Shown: positions 37,212-38,184 of the stretch, in pieces | Numbering within the stretch: the first letter of the stretch is position 1 | Layout of the letters: each line of letters starts with the position of its first letter | Source: Spirosoma foliorum | GTDB taxonomy: Bacteria > Bacteroidota > Bacteroidia > Cytophagales > Spirosomataceae | Assembly: GCF_014117325.1 (NCBI RefSeq) | Contig: NZ_CP059732.1 | Span: forward strand, 3,733,001 to 3,797,000 | Reading direction: 5' to 3' | Length of the DNA: 64,000 nucleotides | Translations under genes and position numbers: made by a program | Notes under the pieces: model-generated | Told to the model about the DNA's origin: nothing | Databases searched by the model: none | The model's input: the letters and a program-made list of their open reading frames with translations, nothing else

Positions 37212-37307
37212 TAGTTTGACGTTTGTAGTTCGATGTTTGACGTTGGATAATGCATCCCAGCCTATAAATCAACTAACATCAACCGTCGAACTACAAACGT
37301 CAAACTA
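37212..37307. repeat. Inverted repeat between the lrp and hslV genes
   Basis: Arms 37212-37233 and 37286-37307 (22 bp) are perfect reverse complements with words such as GTTTGACGTTTGTAGTTCGA. The right arm contains the TAG stop of the Lrp-family gene (37305-37307). Confidence 0.85.
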
Positions 37308-37778
37308 GCTTTCTGCAAACGGGATTGGTCGGTTGACGCTTTCTTCGAGGGAAATAAAGGTTTCCGTTCTCTGAATACCAGCCACTTTCTGAATTTTATC
37401 GTGGAGCACTTCACGCAAGTGCTGGGTATCCCGACAAACGATTTTGGCGAAGATGCTGTAAATACCCGTTGTATAGTGAACATTGACAACCTCAGGAATT
37501 TTTTCCAATTGTTTGGAAACTTCCTCATAAAGTGAGCTTTTGTCCAGGTAAATCCCCAGAAACGCACTAATATCCCAACCTAGCTTGGCATGATCGATCA
37601 CCAACTGCGATCCTCGTACGATGCCCATTTGCTTCAGTTTATTCATGCGAACATGAACGGTTCCTCCCGATACGAAGATTCGTTTGCCGATTTCAGTATA
37701 AGCCATATTGGCATCCTGCATTAGTAAACTCAATATTTTAAGATCAGTATTATCAATTTCTAAATTTTTTTCGGTCAT
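37305..37778 (-). CDS. Lrp/AsnC-family transcriptional regulator
   Basis: The 157-residue protein has an N-terminal winged helix (residues about 8-60, LEIDNTDLKILSLLMQDANMAYTEIGKRIFVSGGTVHVRMNKLKQMGIV as read in pieces) and a C-terminal RAM ligand-binding domain (about 72-150) with EVVNVHYTTGIYSIFAKIVC as its core. Such regulators sense amino acids and form octamers or dimers. Targets are unknown. It is divergent from the tRNA-like RNA gene; a -7 box on the minus strand lies at 37806-37813. Confidence 0.9.
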   Translation of the reverse strand: MTEKNLEIDNTDLKILSLLMQDANMAYTEIGKRIFVSGGTVHVRMNKLKQMGIVRGSQLVIDHAKLGWDISAFLGIYLDKSSLYEEVSKQLEKIPEVVNVHYTTGIYSIFAKIVCRDTQHLREVLHDKIQKVAGIQRTETFISLEESVNRPIPFAES

Positions 37779-37813: not shown

Positions 37814-37860
37814 TCGTTTTTTTGAACACATTGTAAATTTTAAGAAATTTTTATGTAAAA

Positions 37861-37893
37861 TTTGCAATAGGCCGATCACATAAGCTATCTTTG
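37861..37893 (+). promoter_or_regulatory. Promoter of the tRNA-like RNA
   Basis: TTTG at 37861-37864 and TATCTTTG at 37886-37893 are separated by 21 bp, a full match to the Bacteroidota TTTG-N(19-21)-TAnnTTTG promoter. The transcript start would be near 37900, about 53 nt before the tRNA-like fold. Confidence 0.75.
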
Positions 37894-37952
37894 TATTGTC
37901 AAGTTGATCGAGCGGGGTCACACGCCGGTCTTCTTGGCTTTTTTTCTCACAC

Positions 37953-38109
37953 TGTAGGATGTCGAAATTGGCAGACGTGCCCTCCTGTCTCGGGGGTGGT
38001 GATAAAGGATAAACGCAGCATAATGCCGCCCTCGTGGCGACTGGGGTTGACCACCAGAGTTGTACTGTAGCTAACTGCACCGTGGGCGGTTCGAGTCCCC
38101 CTCCTACAG
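37953..38109 (+). ncRNA. tRNA-like RNA with a class II (Leu-like) body and an 88-nt structured insertion
   Basis: TGTAGGA (37953-37959) and TCCTACA (38102-38108) form a perfect 7-bp acceptor stem, with G38109 as discriminator and no encoded CCA. GTCGAAATTGGCAGACG is a tRNA-Leu-type D arm, though its third pair is T-T. CCCTC (37980-37984) and GGGGG (37992-37996) pair around CTGTCTC, giving anticodon GTC by position. The T arm is GGCGG-TTCGAGT-CCCCC with one C-C mismatch. Between anticodon and T arms lie 88 nt instead of about 15: GGTG (37998-38001) pairs with CACC (38078-38081), enclosing hairpins at 38018-38026, 38027-38039, 38041-38057 and 38058-38076. It has its own promoter and terminator. 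It is probably not an ordinary tRNA. Confidence 0.65.
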
Positions 38110-38147
38110 CATTTGGTTTTTAGTTTGTTGATGAAGTGTAATTGAAC

Positions 38148-38184
38148 ACGCCGGCTCCCCGATGAGTCCGGCGTTTGTTTTTTT
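38148..38184 (+). terminator. Intrinsic terminator of the tRNA-like RNA
   Basis: ACGCCGG (38148-38154) pairs with CCGGCGT (38168-38174), extended by CTC/GAG inside, followed by TTGTTTTTTT. It separates the RNA gene from lepA. Confidence 0.85.

Follow-up and report, generated by a model that had tools for sequence, protein, structure and literature searches.

Several bacteria make asparagine on a tRNA. According to the available text of PMC4206432, Deinococcus, Thermus and Bdellovibrio form it on tRNA-Asn, a decoding tRNA with a U1–A72 pair, using a non-discriminating AspRS together with GatCAB, in gene sets without the usual asparagine synthetases; the same text poses the puzzle of why GatCAB is retained in Bdellovibrio and some Bacteroidetes. 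The bases that govern such reactions are described in the accessible part of PMC9976931, in which Asp identity is assigned to G73, G34, U35, C36, C38 and G10, with G2–C71 as a minor element, and in which U1–A72 confers amidation of Asp-tRNA-Asn, whereas G1–C72 and U20a prevent it. In Escherichia coli, asnA, which encodes an asparagine synthetase, lies divergent to asnC across a 151-nt gap. Finally, tmRNA, tRNA-Sec and the allo-tRNAs (PMC7609411, available text) are examples of tRNA-like RNAs that bear extra parts or long variable arms.

Here we describe an RNA gene in a 64,000-nt stretch of Spirosoma foliorum DNA (the window). The RNA resembles the tRNA-Asn of tRNA-dependent asparagine synthesis in its U1–A72 pair and its predicted enzymes, AspRS and GatCAB, and its genome likewise lacks the usual asparagine synthetases; however, the carrier in the systems covered by that part of PMC4206432 is the decoding tRNA-Asn, whereas here it would be an RNA distinct from that tRNA, bearing Asp determinants and a loop of non-decoding type. 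The arrangement is that of asnC–asnA, with the divergent gene beginning 174 nt from asnC in the window, but this gene encodes an RNA and not a protein synthetase. Unlike tmRNA, tRNA-Sec and allo-tRNAs, the RNA combines a 7-bp acceptor stem followed by U8 with a retained anticodon arm and an Asp-type loop, and has no tag frame. We consider it probable, on comparative sequence grounds, that this is a dedicated non-decoding RNA that is charged with aspartate, amidated to asparagine and controlled by AsnC. A search of the open literature (titles and the beginnings of abstracts, with few subscription journals covered) returned no description of such an RNA and no precedent for a dedicated codon-blind asparagine carrier.

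A free-standing RNA gene between asnC and lepA

The local gene order begins with a minus-strand AsnC-type gene; a promoter, the RNA and lepA follow on the plus strand. The RNA occupies 37953–38110, with 157 nt up to G73 (38109) and then C74 (38110), and is present as a single copy in the genome. A preliminary description of the locus had proposed a free-standing transcription unit, which we uphold. Its Bacteroidota-type promoter, TTTG (37861–37864)-N21-TATCTTTG (37886–37893), can be read directly on the plus strand, and the strict pattern recurs in 33/33 genus copies and 57/171 other bacterial copies, against a base-shuffled expectation of 0.6, copies with too little upstream DNA having been dropped beforehand. 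The intrinsic terminator at 38148–38184 (+) was likewise confirmed by eye: a 7-bp stem, ACGCCGG (38148–38154) with CCGGCGT (38168–38174), encloses a 13-nt loop and leads into a T-rich run that ends at 38184, and the printed genus members retain the element. Because this loop exceeds the length allowed by our automated terminator scan, the scan did not list it.

A leader with a stem-loop (37894–37952, +) precedes the RNA and, by eye, is near-identical among the genus members printed (the window and L009, L011, L016, L020, L025, L026, L031, L036, L037, L055 and L056). Within it, at 37898–37940, TCAAG..CTTGA can fold around GATCG(A)GCG..CGCCGGTC; of the printed members, only the window and two of its close relatives have a terminator-like T run after this fold. 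On the 3′ side, the printed genus members, and also L040 from another family, share the trailer TAGTTTGTTGATGAAGTGTAA, which lies ahead of the terminator within 38111–38184. By eye, a 21-nt inverted repeat, AGTTTGACGTTTGTAGTTCGA, is also found at 37213–37233 and 37286–37306, downstream of asnC and before an hslV-like gene.

A covarying family related to tRNA

Searching 58 relatives by blastn, we found the RNA in 34 of 35 genomes of the same genus at 90–99% identity (two cut at contig ends; G026 is without it) and in 12 of 23 other members of the family or order at E < 1e-6; a thirteenth relative outside the genus, G056 (blastn E 0.005), was confirmed by a covariance model. ARAGORN returned no tRNA anywhere in the window, the RNA included, and Rfam 15 gave nothing at gathering level; relaxing the search to E = 10 yielded three weak unrelated matches, all outside the RNA. 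The RNA belongs to a family without an Rfam 15 match. Our covariance model, R1, scores the window copy at 130.9 bits and the next match in the same genome at 54 bits.

The structure, drawn by hand on 19 aligned copies, pairs in 93.4% of cells, and 16 of its 29 pairs differ on both sides. None of 500 shuffles reached the observed covariation score, which also exceeded that of every slid register; sliding reduced pairing to 49–61%. The count of further pair types was less telling (39 of 500 shuffles reached it), and folding energy gave no signal for this RNA (z = +0.34). When 100 distinct sequences were aligned by fitting them to the model, each of the helices contained two or more pairs in which both partners had changed. 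The check named for the locus, a search for covariation in homologous loci, thus came out positive, both upstream of lepA and at other places. Its retention at 90–99% identity in 34 of 35 genus relatives shows the RNA to be under strong selection.

The helices are those of a cloverleaf. As the preliminary description had noted, the acceptor stem has seven perfect pairs, TGTAGGA (37953–37959) with TCCTACA (38102–38108), which brings U1 (37953) opposite A72 (38108). The D arm (37962–37978; stem 37962–37964 with 37976–37978) is supported by alignment and covariation, and its Leu-like character was borne out. It had also been called weak, which is true of the window copy, where U10 faces U25, but not of the homologues, in which the D stem covaries (AUG/CAU, UUG/CAA, GUG/CAC and ACG/CGU, with 91.2% of cells paired). 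The anticodon arm, CCCTC-CTGTCTC-GGGGG (37980–37996), presents the loop CTGTCTC (37985–37991), with GTC at 37987–37989, a pyrimidine at residue 37 (37990) and C38 (37991). In the T arm, GGG(C)GG-TTCGAGT-CCCCC (38084–38101), what had been read as a mismatch is better explained by a bulged C at 38087: homologues have a bulge of 0, 1 or 2 nt and all 5 bp still pair. With helices of 7, 3–4, 5 and 5 bp, GG in the D loop and TTCRANNC in the T loop, the fold is that of a canonical tRNA. All arms lie on the plus strand.

Between the anticodon and T arms sits the expanded variable arm (37998–38081), correctly suspected from the window and common to nearly all family members. The up to four insert hairpins at first suggested are not the conserved fold. 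What is kept is a 4-bp closing stem (37998–38001 with 38078–38081), fully paired in the 19 copies and with compensating changes; an internal loop of GGATAAA (38007–38013) facing CTAAC (38071–38075); and one inner stem of variable length (region 38014–38070), which of all the helices is the least well paired (65.9% of cells in the 19 copies and 62.6% in the 100 sequences). Two members lack the long arm, one of 78 nt (L105:1038–1115, in G047) and one of 97 nt from a phage (L253:2908–3004), the latter called a tRNA-Asp by ARAGORN. Both keep U1–A72, G73, U35, C36 and C38, and the arm therefore seems dispensable for the core. In several phage copies the D loop contains an additional hairpin-like insert (L262, L283, L250, L257, L238 and other viral loci), and tandem copies, three or two, occur in several genomes (L051, L095, L096 and L143; L043, L045, L108 and L107).

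A degenerate tRNA carrying an inserted element was suggested at the outset; this reading, or that of a pseudogene, has in its favour that ARAGORN and Rfam miss the RNA. The covariation, the deep conservation, the promoter and the neighbouring gene contradict it, the features that had seemed odd (an Asp anticodon with a pyrimidine at 37) are themselves conserved, and we give the idea almost no credence. A mobile insert was rejected because the genome holds no second copy of the insert. tmRNA was also set aside: the anticodon arm is kept, there is no tag frame, and members of 110–112 nt leave no room for one. tRNA-Sec has a UCA anticodon and an 8-bp acceptor stem, whereas this RNA has GTC and a 7-bp acceptor followed by U8 in 240/240 sequences.

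Determinants for AspRS and GatCAB, and a loop of non-decoding type

The GTC anticodon and discriminator G, first assigned as Asp-type by position, are confirmed (loop CTGTCTC, G73) and prove to be part of a larger conserved set. Across 240 distinct sequences (193 bacterial and 47 phage; the truncated copies L049, L050 and L247 were dropped beforehand), G2–C71, G73, C74 and U8 are present in all, and U1–A72 in 239 (192/193 bacterial and 47/47 phage), the sole exception being A–A. Pair 3–70 is U–A in 191/193 bacterial and 40/47 phage sequences, and pairs 4–7 vary with compensation. U35, C36 and C38 occur in 195/195 bacterial and 48/48 phage distinct sequences; the pattern used to collect the phage and named-genome sets imposes these three bases and Y37, but the 107 rows obtained by blastn or the model, free of that pattern, have the same U35, C36 and C38. 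G34 is found in 176/195 bacterial and 48/48 phage sequences, including the window. G10 is not kept in the family, and an A follows C20 in GGCAG, the numbering 20a being inferred from the Leu-type D loop. Set against the published rules, U1–A72 and the Asp determinants join the marks of AspRS with those of GatCAB in one RNA.

As a rule, decoding elongator tRNAs have U33 and a purine at 37. U33 is present in 162/195 bacterial and 47/48 phage sequences, and the window copy has it, but there together with U37; the pyrimidine first seen at this position is one instance of a conserved feature, as residue 37 is never A (U in 175, C in 16 and G in 4 of the 195 bacterial sequences, and only U, C or G overall). 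Because of the rule for residue 37, and because tRNA models do not detect it, we do not file the RNA as a canonical tRNA, and the view that it is neither an ordinary tRNA nor a tmRNA holds on the grounds of residue 37, detection by tRNA models and the tag frame.

An ordinary Asp tRNA was rejected as an identity: the RNA has U1–A72 and no A37, and a separate tRNA-Asp exists in the same genome (G1–C72, loop CTGTCAC) and in nine phage loci (loop CTGTCAC in all nine). The family shares G73, G2–C71, U35, C36, C38 and mostly G34 with bacterial tRNA-Asp(GUC) but differs in having U1–A72 instead of G1–C72, no A37, a long variable arm and a Leu-like D arm. Since the marks for AspRS and GatCAB are kept while A37 is absent, this is likely to be a dedicated RNA for making asparagine.

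Co-occurrence with GatB

In a hand-picked panel of 38 genomes, GatB is present in 18/18 genomes with the RNA and 5/20 without it, and all 40 RNA-positive genomes among 395 Bacteroidota have GatB. Within the class of S. foliorum (98 genomes), 37 have the RNA and GatB, 57 have neither, 4 have GatB only and none has the RNA only; the Fisher p of 7.5e-23 ignores kinship among genomes that are not independent, and the table was tallied by eye, with 20 of the 73 GatB-less genomes named and the rest taken as absent from the listed matches. The split also runs inside families: in f22, genera g42 and g44 have both and g30 and g49 neither, and genera g33 and g47 of f23 have neither. Beyond the class, GatB is found in 281 of 297 genomes but the RNA in only 3, so that in these genomes GatB by itself is no predictor of the RNA. 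The four class genomes with GatB only are G047, which has the short RNA, G099, which is without GlnRS, G210 and G258. The last two (genus g34, family f25) have GatB in a genus mostly without it, with weaker scores (E about 1e-94), and horizontal gain is possible.

GlnRS exceeds its cut-off in 15/18 RNA-positive and 18/20 RNA-negative panel genomes, which leaves GatCAB no evident textbook task in those 15. Nearly every genome has three class II synthetase matches, which we judged by size to be AspRS, LysRS and AsnRS; in S. foliorum, AspRS, AsnRS, GlnRS and GatB all exceed curated cut-offs. These data bear on a second possibility: a non-discriminating AspRS might charge ordinary tRNA-Asn, on which asparagine would then form as it does in Bdellovibrio, and the RNA would serve that complex as a scaffold or helper. 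The tRNA-Asn of S. foliorum does have U1–A72, and Bdellovibrio, with an equal enzyme set and no synthetases, works in this way according to the available text of PMC4206432. However, a scaffold would have no need of AspRS anticodon determinants, and the AspRS of S. foliorum scores best as the ordinary bacterial type, far below the cut-off of archaeal-type tRNA(Asn) models, although a non-discriminating bacterial enzyme is compatible with this. We regard a helper role as quite unlikely and favour an RNA that is itself charged and amidated.

An AsnC-type neighbour, with the RNA gene in the place of asnA

The divergent gene (37305–37778, minus strand) encodes a 157-aa regulator of the Lrp/AsnC family (Pfam AsnC_trans_reg, 69.8 bits). 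Its best curated model is NCBIfam AsnC (163 bits, below the cut-off of 227), its best PDB chain is 2cg4, AsnC, and over 149 aa it shares 43.6% identity with E. coli AsnC. An AsnC-type gene accompanies 116 of 168 RNA loci and is upstream on the opposite strand in 116/116, with a gap of 122–397 nt. After merging 7 pairs with shared RNA and flank, the 168 loci become 161 places, of which 113 have the neighbour (83/131 outside the genus) and 48 do not; 7 loci have less than 600 nt of upstream sequence. L147, from Spirosoma luteum, has its RNA and flank in common with L031, a relative from the same genus. In a second hand-picked panel, of 44 genomes, a close AsnC (57–100% identity) is found in 20/20 RNA-positive genomes and in G047. 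There is none in the RNA-less G026, G075, G171, G099 and G103; the RNA-less G060, G178 and G414 have a close AsnC beside other genes and no GatB, and RNA-less flavobacterial-type genomes have AsnC at 39–46% identity. An inverted repeat, ATTGTAAATTTTA/TAAAATTTGCAAT (37830–37868), overlaps the −33 element, scores 10 against 6–7 in three shuffles and is seen within the genus, which is suggestive of a possible AsnC site; the spacers are AT-rich, and our search across loci found no common AsnC-site palindrome.

S. foliorum, G011 and G246 have neither AsnA nor AsnB over the cut-offs, and the AsnB-like protein of S. foliorum finds its best match in a lasso-peptide cyclase model, at a score below that model's cut-off. 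In the 38-genome panel, AsnA is present in 2/18 RNA-positive and 4/20 RNA-negative genomes, and the AsnB family exceeds its cut-off in 15/18 and 17/20. The RNA therefore cannot be the only candidate route to asparagine in those RNA-positive genomes. The E. coli-like AsnB with a split layout (frames of 528–586 aa), judged from the layout of matches and not by a curated rule, occurs in 0/18 RNA-positive and 13/20 RNA-negative genomes (Fisher p 1.6e-5); the AsnB-family forms in RNA-positive genomes are mostly of 600–690 aa, with one 571-aa frame, in G132. In G026, which encodes GatB but neither AsnA nor AsnB over the cut-off, the RNA and a close AsnC are both missing.

The AsnC-type neighbour would also suit an RNA that senses or regulates aspartate or asparagine status, its charged state being read by a protein or RNA target, with no part in supplying asparagine. 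The large conserved internal loop, GGATAAA/CTAAC, is a potential binding site for such a partner. We think this unlikely, as a sensor leaves unexplained both the co-occurrence of the RNA with GatB in the class and the copies inside phage tRNA clusters, and we prefer a carrier on which asparagine is made.

Occurrence in bacteria and phages

R1 detected the RNA in 40 of 395 Bacteroidota genomes (tallied by eye from the listing), all at 89.9 bits or more. Below this stands G047 alone at 71 bits, with a 78-nt match that lacks the long arm and has U1–A72, G73, U35, C36 and C38; tRNA-sized matches reach at most 67 bits. In a pattern scan of named genomes, the matches listed include Spirosoma, Dyadobacter, Hymenobacter, Pontibacter, Algoriphagus, Cyclobacterium, Chitinophaga, Mucilaginibacter and Pedobacter, as well as Saprospiraceae and an Ignavibacteriales bacterium; all 80 examined of at least 120 matching stretches were confirmed by R1. 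In seven loci (L116, L167, L067, L077, L090, L182 and L194), a trmB-like frame (tRNA m7G methyltransferase, judged from the letters) lies near the RNA.

On viral contigs, R1 confirmed 52/52 pattern-selected matches. ARAGORN, run on 20 of these loci, found 1 to 26 tRNA or tmRNA genes at 18 and none at 2, and phage DNA polymerases were present on 4 of the 8 viral loci scanned (8 of 52 checked). An uncultured phage of 636 kb (LR756504.1) has its copy among tRNAs, and the viral contigs L249, L250, L264 and L253 combine up to 25 tRNA genes, a tmRNA and the RNA. Plasmids searched with the window RNA, and phages searched with a second query, gave no match.

Phages that carry tmRNA and many tRNAs alongside the RNA, and the retention of the tRNA elbow and anticodon arm, could point to a ribosomal role that involves no codon reading, such as the rescue of stalled ribosomes beside tmRNA. 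Such a role gives no reason for U1–A72, the Asp determinants, AsnC or GatB, and we hold it to be very unlikely. Equally improbable in our estimate is that the RNA, once charged with Asp or Asn, serves as donor to a non-ribosomal transferase (for cell wall, lipid or peptide) and does not yield free asparagine. Non-decoding tRNAs with roles of this kind are known, such as a tRNA-Gly of Staphylococcus, but no transferase gene recurs beside the RNA and carriage by phages would be hard to explain.

A proposed route to asparagine

With moderate confidence, we propose that a codon-blind RNA, charged by AspRS and amidated by GatCAB, substitutes for asparagine synthetase, that its gene occupies the position of asnA next to asnC, and that phages have it among their tRNA genes as a metabolic RNA gene. 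In this scheme, aspartate is predicted to be loaded onto the RNA by AspRS and, while bound, to be amidated to asparagine by GatCAB; the charged RNA would escape the ribosome, asparagine would be released by hydrolysis or by some enzyme, and AsnRS could then attach the freed amino acid to ordinary tRNA-Asn. Expression of the RNA is predicted to be set according to asparagine by the divergent AsnC-type regulator, the RNA gene standing where E. coli has asnA, and in phages with large tRNA sets a copy would sustain the supply of asparagine. Several findings weigh against the proposal: the AsnB-family proteins and the two cases of AsnA in RNA-positive panel genomes, the variation at G34 and the loss of G10, the gene content of G026, GatB without the RNA in G210, G258 and most genomes outside the class, a close AsnC without RNA or GatB in G060, G178 and G414, and the 48 places that have no AsnC neighbour. 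The tRNA mimic of the preliminary description came near to this; the functional reading rests on the AsnC neighbour, the co-occurrence with GatB and the phage copies.

tRNA finders overlook RNAs of this kind, and the family would add to the known RNAs one that Rfam 15 does not match. If the proposal is true, tRNA-dependent amino-acid synthesis would here be separated from decoding, with the adaptor serving as a metabolic cofactor, and phages would be shown to carry an RNA gene for amino-acid supply. It would also explain why these Bacteroidota keep GatCAB despite having AsnRS and mostly GlnRS, and would fill the hole in the asparagine metabolism of Spirosoma-like genomes.
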